Both the position numbers and the translations under genes were made by a program. A stretch of DNA of 64,000 nt from a virus, in IMG/VR virus record IMGVR_UViG_3300045971_000528, positions 42,082 through 106,081 of that record; one strand, given 5' to 3'. Position 1 is the stretch's first letter; the number at the start of each line of letters is the position of its first letter. This document shows, piece after piece, positions 4,629-60,499 of the stretch. The notes beneath the pieces were generated by a model. It did no database searches. It was given only the letters and a program-made list of their open reading frames with translations, and was not told where the DNA came from.

Positions 4629-5735
4629 TTAGCAGGCTCTTTCGTCAGGTTGCAGCATCGAGATCAGAGCACCGATGCGGGCTTGTTCGATGCCCTCACC
4701 GATTTCCTTGCCGCTCATGCCATCGGCCACGAACACGGGTGCCAGTTGAGAAGCCAGCGGTTGCGCGAGGCTGAAGCCACCCACCATTTCGCGGGCAGTG
4801 AATGTCTGCGCTGTGCCCAACTTCGCCGCGCCGTAGCTGATCAGCGTGAACAGCTCCAGGCGCTTTTCATTCTGCCAGCCGATGCGCCGCAGCAATGCAC
4901 TCAAATCGCGGGCGGTATGATTGGCTGTGCGGTTCTGGCTGATGAACTGCGCAAATGCCCAACCTTCGCTACCGCCGACCTGCATCGAGAACGCTTGATC
5001 ACTTTGCGCGATGGCTGTGAACGCCAGCACACGTTCGTCCTTGTTGAAGTTCTGGCGAACCCAACCAGCAACATCGGCGAGTCGCAAGGTGTTCATGCCG
5101 CGGAAGAAGCTGACGTGCTGGGTAACCTTCAGCTCATGCAGCATCTTGAAGAAGCGCATGCAGCCCTTGACCGTGCACGTCTTCAGCACCTTGACAATCT
5201 CGGCAGCGAAGCGCTCCCACGGCAGCTCATTCAGCTCGCCGCGTGCGACCATTTCCTGCGCGAATAACAGCGTGACGTCAGCGACCGTGAAATCCTCGAA
5301 GCGACCGTAGAAGCGAGCCAAACGAACGACGCGCAATGGGTCTTCCTTGAAGGCACTCGACACATGGCGTAGGATGCGCTTGTTGATGTCGTTGATGCCG
5401 TCGAACGGGTCGATGAACTCGCTGGTCTCTTCGTCCATGGCGATCGCATTGATCGTCAAGTCACGACGGCCCAGGTCGTCGGCCAGCGTGACATCTTCGT
5501 CGTAGTGCACCGCGAAACCGTGGTAGCCGGCCCCCGTCTTGCGCTCCGTGCGAGCGAGAGCGTATTCTTCACCCGTCGTGGGATGCAGGAAGACAGGGAA
5601 ATCGGCACCGACTTGTTCGTAGCCCATGGCCAGCATCTCTTGCGGGGATGCACCAACGACTACATAGTCACGGTCCTGGATGGAGTTGCCCATCAACAGG
5701 TCACGAACTGCGCCACCAACGAGGTATTGTTTCAT
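4629..5735 (-). CDS. cca: CCA-adding tRNA nucleotidyltransferase
   Basis: 368 aa, close to bacterial class II enzymes. The start LVGGAVRDLLMG, the metal-binding pair in DRDYVVVG (Asp21, Asp23), the RRDLTINAIAMD block (90-101) and DPLRVVRLARF are all in order. The enzyme adds or repairs the 3' CCA of tRNAs. Several tRNAs in this window lack an encoded CCA, so a phage copy makes sense next to the tRNA region and the RNase P RNA gene. It has its own promoter (TGTACA, 16 nt, TAGAAT), whose -10 ends 6 nt before ATG, predicting a leaderless mRNA. Confidence 0.95.
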   Translation of the reverse strand: MKQYLVGGAVRDLLMGNSIQDRDYVVVGASPQEMLAMGYEQVGADFPVFLHPTTGEEYALARTERKTGAGYHGFAVHYDEDVTLADDLGRRDLTINAIAMDEETSEFIDPFDGINDINKRILRHVSSAFKEDPLRVVRLARFYGRFEDFTVADVTLLFAQEMVARGELNELPWERFAAEIVKVLKTCTVKGCMRFFKMLHELKVTQHVSFFRGMNTLRLADVAGWVRQNFNKDERVLAFTAIAQSDQAFSMQVGGSEGWAFAQFISQNRTANHTARDLSALLRRIGWQNEKRLELFTLISYGAAKLGTAQTFTAREMVGGFSLAQPLASQLAPVFVADGMSGKEIGEGIEQARIGALISMLQPDERAC

Positions 5736-20055: not shown

Positions 20056-21105
20056 TCAGGCGCTCTTGCCTTCCTTGAAGTGCTTGCCGACGGACGGCCA
20101 GTACAACAGGTTGGTGCCGGCGACGACCTTGCGGTTCGTGCTGGTGGACTGGATGAACACGTCCCATTCGCCGAGGTTGTCAGGCGACAGCTTGGCGTCG
20201 ACGCTGGGCAGACCCACCATCTGGCGAGCAGCCGGGCCGGCGAAGACTTCGCCCGTCTTCTGGTTGCGGACGGCGATCAGCTTGTAGCCCTGCACCTTCA
20301 GTTCGCTCTTGGTGAGCTGGTAGAAGGCGGCGCCCTTCAGCATCTTCGTGCCCAGGCGGGCTTCGACGAAGTCACGGATCTGCTGTTCGTGTTCGGCAGG
20401 GCCGACAGGCAGGAGCTGCACTTCGGCGCCGACGTTGACCAGCGCGGCCTTGACGTCTTCGATGTTGACCTCGGCCATGTTGGCGTAGAAGCGCTTCGTC
20501 GACTTCATGCCCTTCGAGCGACCAGTCATGTAGTCGGTGAAGGCGGCAGTGGCTTGCGCTTGCGCGACTTCGACACCACGCTGGGTCTGCTCCCAGGCCA
20601 GGATGTTGCCTTCGTGGACGCCCAGGCGGATGAGATTCTTGACCTCGGTGGCCGGCACGCGGAAGGTGAAGGTCCAGCGGTCAGATGCGATCAGCTCTTC
20701 CATCTTGGCGATGGCGCGGCCGGAACTCCAGCGACGGCTGTGTTCGTCGCGACCGTCGGTCGTCAGCGAAACCAGGAAGGCGGCATCGGGCTCGTTGGCG
20801 CCGGGTTGGCTCAGCAGGTTGTCGATGGCGTCGCCGACTGCATCCCACAGGGGCGTGCCGCCATTGGTGGAGTAGGACGAAACGGGGGTGAGGGCTTGAA
20901 CGGGCTGGCCGTCTACCACGACGCGTACGTCGGTGGTGTGACCGTAGCCGAGCTCCAGGACTGAGACGATCGTCTCTTGACCGGAGGCAGCCGTTGCGGC
21001 TGCGATGGAAGCAATGAGACCGTTGTAGTCGTTCATTGCTGGGCGAGCGATCCGGGTCATGGAGCCGGAGTGGTCGCGGATGAGGGCCATGAAACTCTTG
21101 GACAT
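20056..21105 (-). CDS. VWA-domain protein, 349 aa
   Basis: The start is set at ATG 21105 (MSKSFMALIRDHSGSM), preceded by GAAGGA at good spacing. D-H-S-G-S (11-15) is the MIDAS metal site of von Willebrand factor A domains; GGTPLWDAV and TTDGRDEHS supply the other metal-site motifs. The domain spans about residues 5-190. The C-terminal 150 residues (from KRFYANMAEVNIEDVKAALV) are a separate region with a possible helical segment followed by beta strands. VWA proteins usually assemble complexes with a partner; none is identifiable next door. A perfect TATAAATA lies upstream. Confidence 0.85.
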   Translation of the reverse strand: MSKSFMALIRDHSGSMTRIARPAMNDYNGLIASIAAATAASGQETIVSVLELGYGHTTDVRVVVDGQPVQALTPVSSYSTNGGTPLWDAVGDAIDNLLSQPGANEPDAAFLVSLTTDGRDEHSRRWSSGRAIAKMEELIASDRWTFTFRVPATEVKNLIRLGVHEGNILAWEQTQRGVEVAQAQATAAFTDYMTGRSKGMKSTKRFYANMAEVNIEDVKAALVNVGAEVQLLPVGPAEHEQQIRDFVEARLGTKMLKGAAFYQLTKSELKVQGYKLIAVRNQKTGEVFAGPAARQMVGLPSVDAKLSPDNLGEWDVFIQSTSTNRKVVAGTNLLYWPSVGKHFKEGKSA

Positions 21106-21172
21106 GTTTGCAAATTCCTTCAAAGACAAAGTTGATGTTGGGAACAAAGTTTGCCGTCTTCCGACGGCGTTC

Positions 21173-24142: not shown

Positions 24143-24331
24143 CTATTGTTTGGTTGGCAGAGGTGTCTCGCCGCCACCGGCGCGAGTATTTCTACGTTCA
24201 ACGGCAACCTGCACATCGGTCTTGCGGCGATTTCCGACCGCGGCGGTGCGTGGAAATCCGTTGAAGGTTCGGTAAGATGTAAAGCTGACACCACAGAGAA
24301 GCGCGAGAATCGTCAAATCTGCTGGTTTCAT
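24143..24331 (-). CDS. Small protein with hydrophobic N-terminus, 62 aa
   Basis: MKPADLTILALLCGVSFTSY could be a signal or single membrane segment; the rest is basic (GNRRKTDVQVAVERRNTRAG). Follows the RNase P RNA gene. Weak support beyond an open frame. Confidence 0.5.
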   Translation of the reverse strand: MKPADLTILALLCGVSFTSYRTFNGFPRTAAVGNRRKTDVQVAVERRNTRAGGGETPLPTKQ

Positions 24332-24412
24332 CTGTTATCTCCATCCATATGCGTATACCTGCCGGTGATATGGTATTTAGCAGGTTCTGCGCATGAAGCA
24401 CCGTTTGTATTC

Positions 24413-24764
24413 AAAGTCCTATAGCCGGGGTTCTGTCTAGACCTGTCATTCATCTACGGCTTTCACCGTCCTCGTGGGGTTTCAATCCCAGTCATAGGTG
24501 CAACAACCCGTTCCCTCGGCGAGCAGCGTCAGCGAGAACTGTTTGTCTTGCTCCAGAATCGTTGTGGTGCAAACGGGGCTAGCCGTGTTTCCTTACTGCA
24601 AGTCCGTCATTCACGAGAGTAAACACAGAACATCTCATGACACTTTGGCGAAACAAACAGCCTCGCGCTTTGAAGCGAGTCCCCTCCCACAGAGCGATCA
24701 TCCTTGCTCTTCGGAGCCCCGAACTTCCTCTAGACGGTTAGGTTTGTACCACACGGACTGGTTT
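24413..24764 (-). ncRNA. rnpB: RNase P RNA (M1-like catalytic RNA)
   Basis: On the minus strand the 5' part contains GAGGAAGTTCGGGGCTCC (24713-24730), the counterpart of bacterial GAGGAAAGTCCGGGCTCC. The middle contains GGAGCAAGACAAA (24542-24554), matching the conserved GGAGCAAGGCCAAA. The 3' end has TAGATGAATGAC then CAGAACCCCGGCTATA (24420-24455), matching TAGATGAATGAC...CAGAACCCGGCTTAT of E. coli. These elements come in the right order over about 345 nt. AGTCC and GGACT at the two ends can form P1. RNase P trims tRNA 5' ends, and tmRNA is a substrate. Exact ends are approximate. Confidence 0.88.
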
Positions 24765-25001
24765 CATCGACTTGATAGTCTCCACCAGAGGCTCAGCACA
24801 ATTATCGTTGTCACCTAATTCGTCCAGCGACAGGTCGGACTTTGAATTCTTGTCCAATGGATCAAGTGAATGTCGAAGCATCCGATCACGAATGACCTTG
24901 ATCTTCGAACTCCCCTTGTCGCAGTACCAGCAGCTACAATAGATCTTGTGCTTCTGCCGGTTCATCTTGATTCCGCGATCACGGTTCTTTCGATCACTCA
25001 T
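24738..25001 (-). CDS. Small protein with C-x-C-x2-C cluster, 87 aa
   Basis: The basic N-terminus (SDRKNRDRGIKMNRQKHK) precedes YCSCWYCDKGSSKIK, a possible metal site. The acidic C-terminal half runs into the predicted 5' end of the RNase P RNA, so the last codons and the RNA gene overlap by about 27 nt. Probably real but not certain. Confidence 0.55.
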   Translation of the reverse strand: MSDRKNRDRGIKMNRQKHKIYCSCWYCDKGSSKIKVIRDRMLRHSLDPLDKNSKSDLSLDELGDNDNCAEPLVETIKSMKPVRVVQT

Positions 25002-25011
25002 TGAAGTATCC

Positions 25012-25105
25012 TGGCGGTGATGGTGGGATTCGAACCCACGGGCCGTCTTGCGACGACCTCTTCCTTAGCAGGGAAGCCCGATAAGCCTGGCTCTGGCACA
25101 TCACC
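25012..25105 (-). tRNA. tRNA-Ser(GCU)
   Basis: Class II tRNA with perfect acceptor (GGTGATG/CATCACC), long variable arm, G73 and encoded CCA. Anticodon GCU for AGC/AGT. Confidence 0.93.
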
Positions 25106-43045: not shown

Positions 43046-43120
43046 TGGTGCGCCCGGCGGGAATCGAACCCGCGCCAAAGGATTTAGAATCCCCTACTCT
43101 AACCGCTGAGCTACGAGCGC
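43046..43120 (-). tRNA. tRNA-Arg(UCU)
   Basis: Acceptor stem with one wobble, perfect T-stem, anticodon UCU for AGA, encoded CCA. The anticodon stem has one mismatch. Has its own promoter at 43140. Confidence 0.88.
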
Positions 43121-43448: not shown

Positions 43449-43735
43449 GTCGGATGACTCAGCGAACTGAGTCACCTACCGTTTGATGACAAGGACCGGG
43501 TGTCCTCGCAAAGCTTACGCCGCTAGGCGCAGTCCTTCGAAGTTAGCATCGTTTGCAGATACTTGGTTTTGCTTGATTTACGGTCATCGCCTACCGAGCG
43601 CAAGAAAAGTTACTAGTCTGTCGGTCGATTACCAGATCACCCCCATCAGAAGAACACCCGCAGATGCGCTTATGGTGGAGGTGGGGGGATTTGAACCCCC
43701 GTGTCGCCAGCATTTCTCAGTCCTCGTTTACGCTG
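43449..43735 (-). ncRNA. ssrA: Circularly permuted two-piece tmRNA
   Basis: On the minus strand the acceptor piece comes first: GGGGG-TTCAAAT-CCCCC T-arm, then CACCTCCACCA (CCA at 43673-43675). After 28 nt the 5' piece starts with GGGGGTG (43644), which pairs with CACCTCC including a G3-U70 pair, the alanine identity. GATCTGGTAATCGACC follows, matching the tmRNA D-like region. The resume codon GCA at 43554-43556 opens the tag ANDANFEGLRLAA, ending TAA at 43515. This gene order is the permuted form known from alphaproteobacteria, some betaproteobacteria and cyanobacteria. tmRNA rescues stalled ribosomes and tags products for proteolysis. Outer ends are approximate. Confidence 0.92.
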
Positions 43736-44356
43736 TTATTGGAAGCCTGGGTTCAGGCGTCCCAATTTCAAATTCTTCGTCCTCTCGTCAGTGATGGCAA
43801 GCAGAAAATTGGTAGTTGAATCATTATACCACCTTTTCCCGTACGTGCCATTCTTTTTGCACTTTTTGTTTTCGATCCATTCGCTTGACAAAATCCATCC
43901 AACAGGTTGATCACCACGAACAAACCTCCTTCGGTCGCCATCAGCATCTCGATAGATGCTCGTACCAAATGCAGAATTTGTATCGCCTTGCTGGTGGTTG
44001 ATCGATGCGTATGTGTTCTTCCGTTTAGCAACCGCTTCTGGTGTGGAAGCCTGGGCCGTGGCATATTCTTGGTTCTTCGTATTTAGTTTCCAATTAGCAG
44101 ATGTCGGCTTTTTCCAGGGTTGATTTGCAGCGACTGCCTTATGACCACCTAGTCTTTGCAGCTCATGCACTAATTCTGACTTCGAGATAATTCCTGCCAA
44201 ACCTTTCCAAGCCAACTTGTCCTCTACTCTACCGTGCGTTTCATAGAGCAGCCGGTGTGCTTCGGCGTGTTCAGCAACGGTGAGCAGTTCTATGTTGTCT
44301 GGAGAATCTGTTCCACCAGCATGTGTGGGAATTTTGTGATGACGATGTTTCAACAT
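43736..44356 (-). CDS. HNH homing endonuclease-like protein adjacent to ssrA
   Basis: 206 aa. MLKHRHHKIPTHAGGTDSPD then NIELLTVAEHAEAHRLLYE is an HNH-type core with H-H-K-I-P, N and H ligands. The C-terminus KRWYNDSTTNFLL...GRLNPGF shares W-Y-N-x-x-T-x-x-F-L...G-R-L with the GIY-YIG protein. The stop codon lies exactly where the tmRNA acceptor piece begins, so it was probably inserted at or next to ssrA. The sequence is AT-richer than its neighbours. A perfect TATAAATA ends 4 nt before ATG. Confidence 0.85.
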   Translation of the reverse strand: MLKHRHHKIPTHAGGTDSPDNIELLTVAEHAEAHRLLYETHGRVEDKLAWKGLAGIISKSELVHELQRLGGHKAVAANQPWKKPTSANWKLNTKNQEYATAQASTPEAVAKRKNTYASINHQQGDTNSAFGTSIYRDADGDRRRFVRGDQPVGWILSSEWIENKKCKKNGTYGKRWYNDSTTNFLLAITDERTKNLKLGRLNPGFQ

Positions 44357-45670: not shown

Positions 45671-46020
45671 TGCTTGTCCGTCCACTGGTTGTAGAGCTTC
45701 CAGCCCAGCACCACCTTCAAGCGCTGGTCGATGCTGGTCGTTGAGCGGCCAAGTTGCCACGCGCAGTGGGCAAGGTCGACGTCCATGAGGTGACCACCAT
45801 TCCCGCCAGCCCGCTGCGTAGCAATGTGCTTGAGCACATCATCTTCGGCCGGACTCCAGCGTGCGCCGAGGCGCGGACGATCGGTCCACGGCGGCATGGC
45901 TGGGTTCAGACCAAGCTGCGGGAACAACCAGGTCTCGGCCTTCTTTAGCGCACGTTGGCGCTGGATCTGCGCATAGACATGCGCTGTGGGATTGAATTGG
46001 GGGCGATAGCGGTAGGTCAT
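45667..46020 (-). CDS. SANT/Myb-like helix-turn-helix protein, 117 aa
   Basis: GARWSPAEDDVLKHIA ... DLAHCAWQLGRSTTSIDQRL fits a Myb/SANT-type three-helix DNA-binding unit (R-W-S-x-x-E-D, then A-x-x-L-G-R-S-x-x-S-I). The N-terminal part is basic. It could be a small regulator. Directly downstream of the NadR-like gene with ATGA overlap. Confidence 0.65.
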   Translation of the reverse strand: MTYRYRPQFNPTAHVYAQIQRQRALKKAETWLFPQLGLNPAMPPWTDRPRLGARWSPAEDDVLKHIATQRAGGNGGHLMDVDLAHCAWQLGRSTTSIDQRLKVVLGWKLYNQWTDKQ

Positions 46021-47033
46021 GTCAGGTAGTCCACGATTTGCTTGACGCGTTGTTCGACTGTGCCACCCACGTAGAGCGGGTGAAGACCACGATGTTTGAG
46101 CATTGTACCATACCAGAGCCAGGCACGGTCACGGAACTCAGGACTCTCCCGCGTTCCGTCCTGCTCGAATGGGATCTCGTTGCCGCACATGATGTAGTGG
46201 CTGTACGGCCGTTCGGAGAGTTCGCGAAGGCGCGGCGAAACGTGGCTGTTGAAGAGCTCCTTGCTGTACCACATCGTGGTCAGTGGAGTCGTGTCGCACA
46301 CCAAGAACCCCTTCGCTTGACGTGCGATCTTCCGTTCCTCGTCAACCTGCACTTCCGCGATCTTCAGCATGTCGTTGTAGCAAAGTTGGTCCGTCCCTCC
46401 GATTCGCTCGGTTAGTGTACGTCCATATTCGGGCACCCAGGCTGTGCCCAGGGCGTCAGCAAGCGCCTTGGCCAGTGTCGTTTTGCCACTGGATTCACCA
46501 CCCAGGATGGCGATTCGGGGCACCAAGCTGGCCTGCACGAATTGGCTGACGTTTGGAATCTGGCCTGGAATACCGCGCCGTGCTTCGGTGCCGCTGATGG
46601 GGAATACCTTGCGTTCCAAATCTACGCAGATGTGATCCACCTGGTGCGACACGAAGAACCGGTCTTGGTAGTAGTCCATCGCGAACTTCGCAAACCCGTC
46701 GCCGTATTCCTCGCTCGTGAAGATGGCGTTGACTACCGCATCACAGCTGTCGATGCAGAAATTCAGGCAGAACTGGCGATGGTAGTCAGCGTCCTCGTGA
46801 TCGAACGGAATGTAGTTCGGCTCGAGCACGTAGATCTCGACATGCTTCAGGTGGCCAAAGGAGGTGTTCAGCCAGAAGCGCCGCTCATCAGCGTGGCAAC
46901 CAGGATGTACGAGGTCGGTGTAGCTGAGCACGATAAGCCGCTCGCATTGGCCAGCCGCCGTGCTGATGAGGTACTCGTGACCAACCGTGAGTGGGCAGAA
47001 CTTGCCGACGACGAGACCGGTTCCGTACATCAT
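46017..47033 (-). CDS. nadR: NadR-like bifunctional NMN adenylyltransferase / ribosylnicotinamide kinase
   Basis: 338 aa. Residues about 5-165 form a nucleotidyltransferase: VVGKFCPLTVGHEYLI (G-x-F-x-P-x-x-x-G-H) and ISGTEARRGI (I-S-G-T-x-x-R). Residues about 172-335 form a P-loop kinase: ILGGESSGKTTLAKAL, then VPEYGRTL and VCDTTPLTTMWYSK. NadR proteins phosphorylate nicotinamide riboside to NMN and adenylate NMN to NAD+. The bacterial repressor HTH domain is missing, so the protein is enzymatic only. ATGA coupling with pnuC upstream supports riboside import and use. Confidence 0.93.
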   Translation of the reverse strand: MMYGTGLVVGKFCPLTVGHEYLISTAAGQCERLIVLSYTDLVHPGCHADERRFWLNTSFGHLKHVEIYVLEPNYIPFDHEDADYHRQFCLNFCIDSCDAVVNAIFTSEEYGDGFAKFAMDYYQDRFFVSHQVDHICVDLERKVFPISGTEARRGIPGQIPNVSQFVQASLVPRIAILGGESSGKTTLAKALADALGTAWVPEYGRTLTERIGGTDQLCYNDMLKIAEVQVDEERKIARQAKGFLVCDTTPLTTMWYSKELFNSHVSPRLRELSERPYSHYIMCGNEIPFEQDGTRESPEFRDRAWLWYGTMLKHRGLHPLYVGGTVEQRVKQIVDYLT

Positions 47034-49469: not shown

Positions 49470-50993
49470 TTAGACAGCCGCAGATTCGCGGACCTGGTCG
49501 ATGTTCACCTTGTTGTACAGGCGGCCAGTGTGCAGCACGAGGCGATGCACGTCTTCCCAACCTTCCGGCACTTTGGCGTTGTCCAGGCGGAACGGCTTTG
49601 TTTCGCGGGTCTTCAGGCTGCGGATGGTGGTCATCACGCCTTCTTTGGACTTCTTGCCTGGATCGGTGATCGGGTCCTTGGCAATGCCTTCCCACTTCTC
49701 CATCATGGCACCACCGTGGGCTCCGACGACCAGCTTCTCGACCAGAATGGCAGAGCCTTTTTGCGCCCACTTCAGCGTATCGCGGTTCACCTTCTGAAGC
49801 AGCGCACCGCCGGAGCCGAACACGACCGACGAAGCGACGAAGCCCATGGCCAGGATGTTGCCGATCAGCGTGAGCATGTTCAGGCGGTCCACGCCGTCAC
49901 CTTGGATGATGCCGACGTTGTTGATGACCTTGTAGCCCTTCTCGTTCACGGTGAAACCGAACGACTCGGCTTGCAGGCGGACCAGCCAAGGCACGATCTC
50001 CATCATGTCGCCACTGTCAGGGCGGAACACGACCTTCGCCTTCGACTCGATGATGTCCTCGCGGAAGCCGCCTTCGGCACGAGGGGCGCACAGGCGCTGA
50101 GCACAGCGCTTCGTGTCCTTGCCGTCGATCACGATCGACAGGATCGAACCTTCCACTGCGTTCGCGAGCATCGCCTTGATGTACTCGCCTTCACCTTCCA
50201 CGTCCAGACCGAACGAGCACTCGACGCTGTGCTCGGTGGCGAACACCGAGAACGCCGACATCGGGCTGTCGTAGTAGAAGTTCATGGCCAGCACACCTTC
50301 GACGGTGTCCGAGCCCATGTAGTTCACCAAGTGCGCAGCACCGCCGACTTCGGCTTGTTCACCGCAGGAGACACCGCGACCGCCGAAGTCGTGCAGCGAG
50401 AACGGCAGGAGTTCCATTGGAGCACCGCTGATCTCGTAGAACCGCTTCATCTCGATCTTGCTGTCACGGTCCAGGGACGCGATCGTCGACGGGTACCAGA
50501 CACCACGGAGGATCACGGTCTCGAACCCGCTGGACATCCAGAACAGGTCTTCGTCGAGCACAGTCACCGAGTACACGGGATCGCCACCGGACAGAACGGT
50601 GCCGTCCGGAGCAGCGCGAACGATCAGCGGAGGGAACCCGCCGTACACGTTCACGACCTTCTCCCACGAAGCGCGGTCGAACAGCGGCCGGCCGAAGTGG
50701 GCGATCGCGAACTGCTCAGCAGCGTCGATGTGGGCCATCGTGATCGGCTTCGAGAAGAACTTCGCGAACAGCATCTGAATGCCGAACACGGTGATCTTGA
50801 TGGCGCTCGGCACACGGGCTTCGCCGTAGCTGGTCATGCCCTTCACGCGCTTCAGCTTCTTGAGCTGCTTGAACATGAAGGGGTGGGTGAACTTGTACGA
50901 GTCGGTACGGCAGATCAGGGAGATCTGGAGTTCATCGAGGGCCGTCCATTGAATGTCGGACGGTTGCGGGGTGAAGATGTTCATCAGAGACAT
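49470..50993 (-). CDS. nadV: Nicotinamide phosphoribosyltransferase (NAMPT)
   Basis: 507 aa, close to vertebrate and bacterial NAMPT in length. Recognised: RTDSYKFTHPFMF near the N-terminus, SLHDFGGRGVSCGEQAEVGG, YMGSDTVEGVLAMNFY, FATEHSVECSFG and VVFRPDSGDMMEIVPWL. The enzyme joins nicotinamide and PRPP to give NMN, the rate-limiting salvage step. NadM/NatV next door turns NMN into NAD+. Phage KVP40 carries the same pair. AGGAG before ATG supports the start. Confidence 0.95.
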   Translation of the reverse strand: MSLMNIFTPQPSDIQWTALDELQISLICRTDSYKFTHPFMFKQLKKLKRVKGMTSYGEARVPSAIKITVFGIQMLFAKFFSKPITMAHIDAAEQFAIAHFGRPLFDRASWEKVVNVYGGFPPLIVRAAPDGTVLSGGDPVYSVTVLDEDLFWMSSGFETVILRGVWYPSTIASLDRDSKIEMKRFYEISGAPMELLPFSLHDFGGRGVSCGEQAEVGGAAHLVNYMGSDTVEGVLAMNFYYDSPMSAFSVFATEHSVECSFGLDVEGEGEYIKAMLANAVEGSILSIVIDGKDTKRCAQRLCAPRAEGGFREDIIESKAKVVFRPDSGDMMEIVPWLVRLQAESFGFTVNEKGYKVINNVGIIQGDGVDRLNMLTLIGNILAMGFVASSVVFGSGGALLQKVNRDTLKWAQKGSAILVEKLVVGAHGGAMMEKWEGIAKDPITDPGKKSKEGVMTTIRSLKTRETKPFRLDNAKVPEGWEDVHRLVLHTGRLYNKVNIDQVRESAAV

Positions 50994-51041: not shown

Positions 51042-52235
51042 TTACTGGTCGATCTGGGCTTCTGCCCAACCGATGATGCGGTCGTGATCCTCGAAGATGA
51101 GATGCGTGTTGGAAGAGACCCACTCGAGACGCTTCCACTCGGCGGCGAATGTCTCGACTGTTTCCTTGCCGTTGGATTCGTAGGCAGGGACGAGTTGTCC
51201 TGACACCTTCGGCAGTGGCTTCGTGTCGTCGAGGCGCATCAGGTACGCTACCGTGATGATGCGCCCGCGCTCCGAGCGGTTGGGGTCGTCGAAGATCTCC
51301 TTGCCGCGGATGGCGCCGTCGAGCATCTTCTTGGTGATCTCTTCAGCGTTCTTGCCCGTCGTCAGGCGAATGCCGGTTTCTTCCAGCGCTTCGCGAACAG
51401 CGGCAGCACGAATGCGCTCATGCTGGTTCACGTAGCCGCCAGGCAGGGCCCAGAGACCGTAGCCCGGCTGGTTGGCCCGCTGGATCATGAGCACGTGACC
51501 CGACTGGATGATGACGGCGTCGGCGGTGTTGAAGGTGACGGGGTGCGGGGAGCCGGCCCACTTCTCCTTGCCTTCCTTGATGAAGGCATTCTGCACCCGC
51601 AGGGCGCCGAGTTCCTCAGGCTGCTTGCGAATGAAGGAGGTGATGAAACCTACCGTGGTTTTGGGCAGCTTCTGTTGCAAGACCGCAAGGTCGGCATCGC
51701 TGAACTGCACACCATTTGTAGTGATCAGAATGTCGCTTTCATAGAGCACACGACGAACACTGGTGGCGCTGAGGTCGGCGTCGGTGCCAGGCTTGTGCTG
51801 CAGCGCAGGGACGAGATCCTTGTTCCAGTGAGGGAAGGCCTCGAGGTACCAGGTGGTGTCATCACGGTCAGAGCCGGTGATGGTCACGTCGGTGAGGATC
51901 TCGTTGCGTGCGAGACAGAACTTGTTCATCGCGTTGTGCACGGTGGCTTGCACTGACTTGATCCACATGTTGTTGGATGCGAAGTCGCGCATGGGCAGCA
52001 CAACGAGATTGCCGATGGTGTCGGTTTGGAGAGACCAGTCGGTCTTCCATGTTTCGATCATGTCTTTCCGTTCCGCGTACGTGAACGGGTTCTTGGGCAT
52101 GCGAGGCTGAAAAGCCGAGCCCACGAGAACGATGACGAGCTTGTATTTCTTGAGTGCCTGTTCCAGCACGTAGGCATGGCCTAGGTGGAAAGGGTTGAAG
52201 CGTCCGATGTAGACGCCGACGTCCGTGTTTGCCAT
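51042..52235 (-). CDS. natV: Bifunctional NMN adenylyltransferase / Nudix hydrolase (NatV, NadM-Nudix)
   Basis: 397 aa. The adenylyltransferase domain starts VYIGRFNPFHLGHAYVL (G-R-F-x-P-x-H-x-G-H) and includes LSATSVRRVLYE (S-A-T-x-x-R). The C-terminal domain has the Nudix box GGYVNQHERIRAAAVREALE followed by ETGI. The architecture matches bacterial NadM and phage KVP40 NatV, which make NAD+ from NMN and hydrolyse ADP-ribose. It follows a late octamer variant AATAAATA. Confidence 0.95.
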   Translation of the reverse strand: MANTDVGVYIGRFNPFHLGHAYVLEQALKKYKLVIVLVGSAFQPRMPKNPFTYAERKDMIETWKTDWSLQTDTIGNLVVLPMRDFASNNMWIKSVQATVHNAMNKFCLARNEILTDVTITGSDRDDTTWYLEAFPHWNKDLVPALQHKPGTDADLSATSVRRVLYESDILITTNGVQFSDADLAVLQQKLPKTTVGFITSFIRKQPEELGALRVQNAFIKEGKEKWAGSPHPVTFNTADAVIIQSGHVLMIQRANQPGYGLWALPGGYVNQHERIRAAAVREALEETGIRLTTGKNAEEITKKMLDGAIRGKEIFDDPNRSERGRIITVAYLMRLDDTKPLPKVSGQLVPAYESNGKETVETFAAEWKRLEWVSSNTHLIFEDHDRIIGWAEAQIDQ

Positions 52236-58765: not shown

Positions 58766-60499
58766 TTACTTGCGCAGCAGGATTTCGACGCGGCGGTTCT
58801 GGGCGTTGGTGCCGATGGGCATCGTGTCGCCGTAACCACGGGTCGTGACGCGCTCGGCCGGGAAGCTGGTCGGAGCATTCGTCATCAGGAACTTCTTCAC
58901 AGCTTCGGCACGGGCCTTGCTGAGCTCGAGGTTGCTGGTCGGGCTGCCGACGGTGTCGGTGTGGCCATTGATCTGCAGCGACAGCGAGGTCACAGCAGCT
59001 TGGTCCAGCACGTCATTCAGCGCAGCCATTGCCTTCGGTGTGAACGTTGCCTTGCCGGTCTCGAACTCGATGGACACGGACTTGGAAGCCACGGTCACGG
59101 TCGATGCGCCATTGAAGGTCGGCGTCACGGCCTTGCCGGCATCGCCAGTGGCGGTCAGCAGCTCTTGCATGTAGCTGGTGTCGATCACGTCTTCGTACTT
59201 CTGCAGGCCGCCAGGCATGATGTCGGGGAAGTACTGGACAGCGATCTTGCCATACACGGTGTAGACCTTCTTGAAGAGGTTGTCAGCGCCGTTCAGGCCG
59301 AAGAGGTAGGCGGAGTCGGCCAAGCTGTTGGTCGTGGAACCACCCAGGGCGATCGGCTTGCCATTCGGGCCGGCTTCGACGGTGCCACGGAAGAGTGAGG
59401 CCCAGTAGCTGGCGTCTTGCTCGCCGAAGATCTTGGCTTCTTCAGCAGCGGCCACCATCAGTGCGGCATTGTCGGTGCGGACCTTCTCGCCACCTTCGAA
59501 CGTGGCAGCCAAGAAGGCCTTCACGACGTCGCGGTGCTTGGACATCCACTCCTTGTTGCCGATGACCAGTGCGGACATCTGCCATGCGTAGTCCTTGGTC
59601 GAAGCCAGAACGCGGATCGACTTGCCACCGGCCTTGAACTGGTTGAACACGTTCGTGTCGCCCGGGGTCCAGGTCGCGGTGCCGGTCACGCACACCTTCT
59701 GCATCTTGCCAGTGCCGGCCACGGTGCGGTCTTCACAGGCGCCGCCTTGGAAGTTCTTCTGCATCGAGGCGATGAAGGCCTGGTCAGCTTCGACGAAGTC
59801 CTTGGCGTTCGTGAGGTTCAGCGCGTTGGGGTCGTAGATCTTCGTGTCGGCGTTCACGGGGATACCGTTGTCGGCGGCCCACTTCACGCAGATGTTGATG
59901 TCGCCGTCACCGAGCACGCCCTTGACGAGAGCACCACGGGGTTCCACACCATCGGCGATGATGCACTTGTCTTCGCCGCGGCTGTAACCGATACCAGCGA
60001 TGCCGGCAACGTGCGAGCCGAAGGGCTTGAGTGCGGCATTGGCGCCGATCGAGAAGGCCGGGTAGCCGTCACCCATGATCACGACGAAGTGCACGCCTTG
60101 AGCCGGATCCTTCGCGAAGGAGGCCAGATCGGCGGTCATCTTGCTGTAGTCGTCTTCACGCTTGATGTCGACAGTCAGGCCCTTGGCCTTGTAGAGACCG
60201 GCCGACTTGGCGTAGGCTGCACCAGCAACGGCGTTCCAGGCCAGGACCTTGACACGCAGCTCTTGCGGGGCAACGGCAGGCGCGTTGATGACGGCACCAT
60301 GGCTCATGGCGATCGCTTCGGCCGGTGTGGTCGGCAGATCGATCTTGTCCGGCACGGCGATGGCGACGGTCGGCTTCGGCGCAACATAGGCGCCCAGCTT
60401 GGTGTTGTCGATGGCCCACTTGGCTCCACCGATGATGGCTCCCACACCCACCAGAAGGATGAGTGCTCGCGGGAGCGGTTTGACGTTACTCAGAAACAT
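58766..60499 (-). CDS. Substrate-binding protein fused to an OmpA peptidoglycan-binding domain
   Basis: 577 aa. Residues 1-30 form a membrane anchor (LSNVKPLPRALILLVGVG). Residues about 80-420 look like a NitT/TauT-type binding domain (VLAWNAVAGAAYAKSAGLYK, DYSKMTADLASFAKDP, VVIMGDGYPAFSIGANAALK). Residues about 455-577 are an OmpA/MotB domain: SIEFETGKATFTPKAMAAL, LQINGHTDTVGSPTSNLELS, RVTTRGYGDTMP and NRRVEILLRK. The whole would be inner-membrane-anchored, bind a ligand in the periplasm and grip the wall. A receptor tied to peptidoglycan is atypical for transport and suggests sensing or envelope support. Confidence 0.9.
   Translation of the reverse strand: MFLSNVKPLPRALILLVGVGAIIGGAKWAIDNTKLGAYVAPKPTVAIAVPDKIDLPTTPAEAIAMSHGAVINAPAVAPQELRVKVLAWNAVAGAAYAKSAGLYKAKGLTVDIKREDDYSKMTADLASFAKDPAQGVHFVVIMGDGYPAFSIGANAALKPFGSHVAGIAGIGYSRGEDKCIIADGVEPRGALVKGVLGDGDINICVKWAADNGIPVNADTKIYDPNALNLTNAKDFVEADQAFIASMQKNFQGGACEDRTVAGTGKMQKVCVTGTATWTPGDTNVFNQFKAGGKSIRVLASTKDYAWQMSALVIGNKEWMSKHRDVVKAFLAATFEGGEKVRTDNAALMVAAAEEAKIFGEQDASYWASLFRGTVEAGPNGKPIALGGSTTNSLADSAYLFGLNGADNLFKKVYTVYGKIAVQYFPDIMPGGLQKYEDVIDTSYMQELLTATGDAGKAVTPTFNGASTVTVASKSVSIEFETGKATFTPKAMAALNDVLDQAAVTSLSLQINGHTDTVGSPTSNLELSKARAEAVKKFLMTNAPTSFPAERVTTRGYGDTMPIGTNAQNRRVEILLRK

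Follow-up and report, generated by a model that had tools for sequence, protein, structure and literature searches.

Among cellular ribozymes, ribonuclease P RNA (RNase P RNA) is a textbook case; in bacteria it works with one protein, RnpA. RnpA touches the catalytic domain of the RNA, and the specificity domain senses the elbow of the tRNA. The subject here is a phage gene for such an RNA, located on the minus strand at positions 24409-24847 (~439 nt, bounded by the two strands of helix P1) of a 64,000-nucleotide stretch of viral DNA. This stretch, called the window, comprises bases 42082-106081 of the 106,081-base virus record IMGVR_UViG_3300045971_000528. The RNA resembles bacterial class A RNase P RNA (Rfam family RF00010) in having helices P1-P7, P15, P16 and P18, the P6 pseudoknot, a bulged U in P4 and the segments GAGGAA, AGCAA, AGAUGAAUG, ACAGAA and, in L15, GGGU. 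It differs from class A in lacking P8-P14, in carrying an extra hairpin between P15 and P18, in its enlarged P3 (in the window and in two related records, G030 and G047) and in its P4, which reads AGU[U]CGGGG/CCCCGGCU in the phage and AAG[U]CCGGG/CCCGGCUU in class A.

P6 is a class A feature and type B RNAs are without it, according to PMC5839562. The same paper and PMC4919922 describe the minimal RNase P RNA of the archaeon Pyrobaculum, named type T in the former and type P in the latter. In this RNA the catalytic domain is kept, the specificity domain is nearly lost and P6 has been modelled, much as in the phage RNA. Unlike type T, which has no P18 (PMC5839562), the phage RNA has P18 in most members and an insert on P7. 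The RNase P RNAs of candidate phyla radiation (CPR) bacteria offer a second parallel, being detected only under the model cut-offs and having helices missing (PMC8172020). These are cellular genes, however, and 23 of 35 are without the CCA-binding UGG, whereas 23 phage RNAs keep GGGU; the same paper, of 2021, gives UGG/GGU as the CCA-binding motif of RNase P RNA. It also reports that all Rfam models applied to two circular megaphages gave only tRNAs and a transfer-messenger RNA (tmRNA), a result that fits either a gene missed by the cut-offs or its absence there. The tRNA-rich jumbo phage XacN1 is similar to the present phage in that its tRNA set covers all 20 amino acids and includes CUA suppressors (PMC5852040), but it yields no RNase P RNA with RF00010 or with R1, a covariance model of the 3′ core of the phage family.

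RF00010 spans window positions 24409-24774 on the minus strand (model 1-367) with 32.6 bits and an E-value of 1.8e-8 in a 751-base stretch around the locus. It is the sole match in these 751 bases after overlap removal when all 4227 Rfam families are compared by E-value. The same locus has an E-value of 6.2e-10 in the 106-kb record, and the core without its 5′ flank scores 29.2 bits (E 1.3e-7). The alignment is good at both termini and in the P15-P16 region, and the class A elements P1, P2, P3, P5, P7, P15, P16 and P18 are all found. An earlier note, made from the sequence, had proposed an RNase P RNA gene in the tRNA region on the basis of three conserved segments in the right order. These are all located on the minus strand: GAGGAA (24730-24725), GGAGCAAG...ACAG (24554-24539), AGAUGAAUG (24455-24447) and ACAGAA (24436-24431). 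The proposal is borne out by the class A match and by covariation in relatives. That the locus is a phage-borne RNase P RNA gene is thus supported by the covariance-model match, by covariation over 23 sequences and by the presence of such RNAs in 34 further contigs. Judged from sequence comparison, it is probable (roughly 80%) that the RNA is a working phage ribozyme of the class A type with an intact catalytic domain, an enlarged P3 and, where bacteria have the specificity domain, a variable insert, and that it would use host RnpA and act on phage tRNAs.

Covariation was assessed in an alignment of 23 phage RNAs of the window clade (the window and 22 relatives), in which P4, P5, P6, P7, P15, P16, P18 and the extra hairpin (P15x, a name coined here) were named by hand before pairs were counted. 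The catalytic domain comprises 46 pairs, and 97.2% of 1027 cells hold standard pairs; 36 pairs have changed on both sides. None of five measures was reached in 500 shuffled alignments, and sliding one strand by 1-3 columns lowers pairing to 30-49%. The slid control and the spread of changes over the helices matter because related sequences can beat shuffles without any structure. P4 is paired in 98.4% of family cells and P6 in 91.7%, with five of the six P6 pairs doubly changed and pairings in relatives such as GAACAG/CUGUUC and GAGUAG/CUACUC. The P6 figure counts G019, G027 and G039 as broken where they are misaligned; read directly, the helix is GCAAGGGA/UCCCUUGC in G019 and CCGAGAA/UUCUCGG in G027, and G031 keeps four of six pairs. 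P6 has 5-8 pairs in nearly all phage RNAs. P18 is variable or lost, and G005 has lost both P18 and P15x. Near the active site GAGGAA, the bulged U, most of AGAUGAAUG and ACAGAA, and GGGU are largely invariant in the 23. The motifs used in the search specified bases in P4, J5/15, L15/P15 and the loop of P16; the P7, P16 and P18 helices and the P6 pairings were left free.

These compensated changes, together with a window copy that is fully paired in P1, P2, P4, P5, P7, P15, P16 and P18, speak against the locus being a decaying, functionless relic of a captured host rnpB. The low score against the bacterial model would suit a relic, as would broken copies elsewhere (a 3′ part only in locus L020 and a truncated tandem copy in L087, both described below), and on balance we regard this origin as very improbable. 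Chance resemblance is excluded by the E-value of 1.8e-8 and the covariation.

The core can be followed element by element, all on the minus strand. J3/4 (GAGGAA), the 5′ strand of P4 with its bulged U at 24722 and the 5′ strand of P5 lie at 24713-24730, assigned from the conserved segments and covariation. P4 is complete, with 8/8 pairs and the bulged U between GAGGAA and ACAGAA; a register with U 24723 bulged was replaced by the 24722 bulge, which also suits the outlier G046. The 5′ strand of P6 (24704-24709) forms the pseudoknot with 24521-24526 through 5/6 pairs in the window and covaries in relatives. The two strands of P7 (24687-24698 and 24558-24567, 9/9 pairs) enclose a 119-nt insert at 24568-24686, which replaces the specificity domain P8-P14; model positions ~74-213 are deleted or substituted by inserts. 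The 3′ strand of P5, J5/15 and the 5′ strand of P15 follow at 24539-24554 (GGAGCAAGACAAACAG), the P16 hairpin, whose loop is the P6 partner, at 24510-24539, and the L15 GGGU with the 3′ strand of P15 at 24502-24509, all three placed by covariation. The class A J5/15 AGCAA and the L15 GGU for the tRNA CCA are present here as GGAGCAAG and GGGU, and the latter is presumably the equivalent of the bacterial binding site for the 3′-CCA of tRNA. P15x (24475-24490), between P15 and P18, and the P18 hairpin (24456-24469) each show covariation in 4/4 pairs, and P18 is formed by 4/4 pairs in the window. J18/2 (AGAUGAAUG, 24447-24455), whose final base also closes P2, and J2/4 (ACAGAA) with the 3′ strand of P4 (CCCCGGCU, together 24423-24436) complete the core as conserved segments. 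A side observation concerns P16: in locus L066 (674-1136; record G038) its stem-loop carries an insertion of ~75 nt.

The ends of the gene differ from those given in the earlier note (24413-24764), which had a possible P1 helix at its ends. That P1 was rejected, since flanks of 48 or 95 nt on the 5′ side give no significant pairing; a better P1 and P2 emerged with a longer flank, ~80 nt further 5′. The 5′ strand of P1 (AUUCAAAGUCC, 24837-24847) pairs 11/11 with the 3′ strand (GGACUUUGAAU, 24409-24419), and the 5′ strand of P2 (GACCUGUC, 24829-24836) pairs 8/8 with GACAGGUC at 24440-24447. P1 and P2 are adjacent, ~118 nt 5′ of GAGGAA, and their score was equalled by none of 200 shuffled flanks. 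They are displaced ~80 nt because P3 is enlarged, an enlargement that, like the loss of the specificity domain, the earlier note had overlooked. When the 5′ flank is 48 nt long, P1 is above shuffles (p < 0.05) in 19/23 sequences, the failures being the window, G030, G047 and G048. G047 has P1 and P2 laid out as in the window, with 2/200 shuffles as good.

The enlarged P3 (24731-24826) consists of outer helices (24824-24821/24736-24733 and 24818-24813/24743-24738), a one-sided internal loop and inner helices. An alignment fold of three sequences (window, G030 and G047) gives the same structure in all, with 29 pairs of which 11 are doubly changed, and CAACGAUAA in the internal loop is invariant among them. 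An 87-aa open reading frame (ORF) at 24738-25001 on the same strand overlaps the 5′ 110 nt of the RNA and ends with a stop codon within P3. The corresponding frame is stopped shortly upstream in G030 and G047 and, in G047, also within P3. Since the frame is closed by these stops, conserved RNA accounts for the enlarged P3 better than protein-coding sequence does. The ORF product has cysteines (CSCWYC) and no PHROG match.

Throughout the window clade P8-P14 are replaced by an insert of 18-197 nt between the P7 strands, and the P6 pseudoknot is retained. Between the P5 strands, ACAGA occurs in 0/23 and CCGCC in 1/23 phage RNAs; we take these to be the conserved motifs of the class A specificity domain (P8-P12), which with its motifs was not found in the window RNA. 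The catalytic domain of E. coli RNase P RNA is able to cleave by itself, though at reduced efficiency; this activity is aided by a P6-like pairing and does not then require P18 (PMC5839562). The phage RNAs are taken for working ribozymes because they follow the pattern of that experiment: P8-P14 are gone, P6 and the L15 GGGU are kept and P18 is variable. An explanation of the loss through odd T-loops of the phage tRNAs found no support, since TTCRA is present in 174/215 tRNAs of nine loci; a position-based count fails where tRNA ends are miscalled.

The change from the bacterial to the phage form of P4 is matched on the opposite strand. The phage form GAGGAAGTTCNGGGCTSC is found in 0/398 genomes of the phylum of G064, and the bacterial form GAGGAAAGTCCGGGCTSC in 53/60 of those genomes; the phylum is Pseudomonadota, G064 being an Aquabacterium metagenome-assembled genome (MAG). 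The GAAGUUC form of P4 is shared by G001, G017, G020 and G023, phage RNAs that score higher with class A; a 3′ motif indifferent to GAAGUUC had retrieved three of them. Within the window clade, G046 has a bacterial-like AAG[U]C with its 3′ strand changed to match.

The relatives were collected by motif scans of 2.9 million virus contigs and one scan of genome contigs, followed by RF00010 on the matched records. RNase P RNA is present in 35 contigs: that of the window, 33 IMG/VR virus records and one MAG contig. All are metagenomic, and the records range from 5.7 kb up to 300, 336, 350, 358 and 385 kb. R1, built from 17 sequences, matches 33 of 42 records, comprising 33/35 virus contigs and 0/7 named phages; the 35 had been preselected, and 16 of the 33 matched had supplied training sequences. 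R1 missed G050 and G056. G001, G017, G020, G021 and G023 are weak with R1 and score 73-255 bits with RF00010 (G001 141 bits, G020 255 bits). RF00010 matched 1/1, 11/23 (E up to 0.001), 7/13 (E up to 1) and 12/29 (E up to 0.1) records in its separate tallies. Two pairs of RNAs, G017/G021 and G048/G061, are identical. The two weakest of the 11 matches in the second tally, G016 and G022 (13-15 bits), were left unused, and three of the 12 in the last, G063-G065, were excluded from the count as rnpB of bacterial genomes. The MAG contig (G066, 12.7 kb; locus L094, JANWKP010000389.1), whose RNA scores 64.8 bits with RF00010, was binned in a Nitrososphaerales archaeon and is probably a misbinned phage.

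A different route, in which no RNase P motif was used, led to G465, fetched for encoding a relative of the window protein at 20056-21147. Its RNase P RNA (87 bits) is of a lineage nearer class A, and the 3.3-kb locus also contains ten tRNAs on the same strand. The other contig with a relative of this protein, the 41.7-kb G464, has no RNase P RNA, so that one of the two was positive. Pattern matches without RNase P features were discarded, among them L091, L092 and L093, which have no CR-I or CR-V nearby; L092, an Aquabacterium contig considered as a host lead, was a chance pattern match, and one search pattern gave zero matches in its scan. A blastn comparison of seven RNAs (window, G001, G020, G017, G015, G034 and G023) with 50,697 phage records returned only MW495066 and MT836057, both of which were rejected. 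MW495066 (locus L064), deposited as the complete genome of Microcystis phage MaAM05, holds a canonical RNase P RNA of 251.8 bits; the record is taken for bacterial DNA because the 12 kb examined carry fliM, fabI, engB, mtgA, glyS and gatD. MT836057 shows a 26-base match and no RF00010 match. Two broken arrangements were seen in passing. In locus L020 (7469-8177) a phage RNase P RNA is represented by its 3′ part alone, which immediately follows an ORF with motifs resembling those of a GIY-YIG endonuclease; an intron or homing insertion is possible. In L087 (G059, 5.7 kb) two RNase P RNAs lie in tandem, the first ending abruptly after GGGUUG, which is put down to recombination or an assembly error.

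The surroundings of the gene are rich in tRNAs. In the window ARAGORN predicts 30 tRNAs along with a single tmRNA; the other 42 kb contribute a further 26 tRNAs, so that the 106-kb record (window, L110 and L111) has 56 tRNA genes, for all 20 amino acids and the anticodon CUA. The nearest tRNA or tmRNA gene in the window is 232 nt from the RNase P RNA. Across the family, 25/33 loci have tRNA or tmRNA genes no more than 2 kb away, every one on the same strand as the RNase P RNA. CCA is encoded in 26/30 window tRNAs and in 199/215 tRNAs of nine loci, TTCRA is the T-loop of 25/30 window tRNAs, and a cca gene is found at 4629-5735. A tmRNA lies at 43452-43785 on the minus strand, with 90 bits for the permuted tmRNA model (gathering score 47) and 90.5 bits for beta_tmRNA (gathering score 84). 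At 43046-43120, also on the minus strand, there is a tRNA with a CUA anticodon that ARAGORN calls tRNA-Pyl and that is probably an amber suppressor. CUA tRNAs occur in L008, L017, L075 and L081 as well, and a UUA tRNA in L040.

With elbow recognition gone, an active RNA might have main targets other than ordinary tRNAs, such as the permuted tmRNA, polycistronic phage RNAs or host RNAs. The replaced specificity domain of the window clade and the permuted tmRNA gene in the window are in keeping with such an altered specificity, and 8/33 loci have no tRNA within 2 kb, though seven of these eight had <2 kb of sequence on one side. Two observations make us consider it unlikely. The phage RNAs nearer class A (G001, 141 bits, and G020, 255 bits) also lie beside tRNAs, and the window tRNAs would remain natural substrates because their T-loops are mostly ordinary and their CCA is mostly encoded.

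That the RNAs belong to misclassified cellular DNA is weighed from the proteins. The 106-kb record has no match to phrog_2, which we take to be the large terminase, and the IMG/VR classification is computational. A phrog_2 match is found in 6/20 RNase P-bearing records (weakly in G020, E 3.3e-9); it is no proof of phage by itself because 11/14 control cellular genomes also match. The phrog_2-matching protein of G034 has annotated jumbo-phage terminases as its best isolate matches, the closest being that of Xanthomonas jumbo phage XacN1 (48.7% identity). In the 106-kb record a tail-fibre-like gene encodes collagen-like repeats, there is no rRNA in the window, and NAD-salvage genes with many phage relatives lie at 46017-47033, 49470-50993 and 51042-52235 on the minus strand (NMNAT-like, phrog_3462; NAMPT/NAPRTase; cytidylyltransferase-NUDIX). 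Against this background a cellular origin, like chance resemblance, has a likelihood close to negligible. Another window gene, at 58766-60499 on the minus strand, codes for a protein of 577 aa that has an OmpA domain and resembles NMT1 weakly; to our knowledge such a protein is unusual in a phage.

The protein partner would most likely be the RnpA of the host. RnpA (PF00825) is found above cut-off in none of 20 records, the 106-kb record included, a set that often consists of fragments and that predates contigs found later. Two sub-threshold matches have E-values of 0.026 (with internal stops) and 0.051, and the PF00825 control was positive in 10/14 genomes. The RNA could instead be a decoy or inhibitor, a non-cutting molecule that keeps the RnpA-binding domain, diverts host RnpA and slows host tRNA maturation. 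The absence of an RnpA gene above cut-off agrees with this, as does the retention of the part that contacts RnpA together with the loss of the part that senses the elbow. A decoy would, however, hardly need the largely invariant active-site elements GAGGAA, bulged U, AGAUGAAUG, ACAGAA and GGGU (the last partly imposed by the motifs), nor would it be expected to sit with tRNAs, and we find it quite improbable.

The reading as a ribozyme for tRNA maturation is preferred because of the same-strand tRNAs, the cca gene, the encoded CCA ends and the lack of RnpA above cut-off. The RNA would be co-transcribed with the tRNA array, fold through the P2/P4 and P6 pseudoknots and bind host RnpA. Its L15 GGGU would grip the encoded CCA end of phage pre-tRNAs, whose 5′ leaders would then be cleaved off, and the tmRNA precursor is a likely additional substrate. 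The earlier suggestion that the phage processes its own tRNAs with the host protein thus stands firmly as regards a phage gene, and as the most likely reading as regards tRNA maturation and the host subunit.

Several results weigh against this reading. The RF00010 score of 32.6 bits is below the gathering score of 100, and the RNA is therefore dropped by annotation at curated cut-offs, which over the whole window gives only tRNAs and the tmRNA. The earlier note had named the class A score and the formation of P4 as decisive: the score fell short of the curated threshold and P4 forms, with 8/8 pairs and covariation in relatives. Conservation in the motif-fixed parts, including GGGU, is partly imposed, since most relatives were collected by motif. 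With the 48-nt flank P2 by itself is above shuffles in just 9/23 sequences. For G030, with its window-like P1/P2 layout, 27/200 shuffles are as good, so that it is not significant alone, and for the short P1 of G048, close to GAGGAA, 36/200 are. No sigma-70 consensus-like promoter is seen in 24300-25012 (0.5 expected). Two overlapping terminator-like hairpins with T-rich tails, identified by consensus only, lie inside the insert at 24660-24679 on the minus strand (0.5 expected) and, if real, would end transcription early. Thirteen named phages, 12 of them isolates and one from an enrichment culture, yielded the RNA with neither R1 nor RF00010, in some cases under stricter filters. For this reason RNase P RNA is not a general jumbo-phage trait.

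The view that such a gene is rarely or never described agrees with the literature searched, which was one open library mostly without subscription journals and preprints. Among the papers listed there, no title or opening of an abstract concerned a phage RNase P RNA, which is not proof of absence, and 'RNase P' is absent from the main text of PMC7162821, PMC7824862, PMC13282480, PMC12619734 and PMC5852040. RNase P RNA itself is known; a phage family with this architecture was not found in print, in what is mainly the open literature.

A viral RNase P RNA family would place a trans-acting tRNA-processing ribozyme on viral genomes. It would be a translation-related part of large phages that is invisible to protein annotation or to curated Rfam cut-offs. 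More tentatively, at somewhat less than even odds, large phages may have evolved their own class of RNase P RNA, distinguished by the rewritten P4, the replaced specificity domain and in some cases the enlarged P3, that takes over host RnpA during infection, works without the elbow sensor, is tuned to phage RNAs (here tRNAs for all 20 amino acids and a permuted tmRNA) and makes their maturation independent of the host RNase P RNA. The family also amounts to a natural experiment, in which about two dozen catalytic domains without P8-P14 but with P6 would allow a direct test of P6 in supporting activity, and in which P4, near-invariant in bacteria, has been rewritten in phages with compensating changes.
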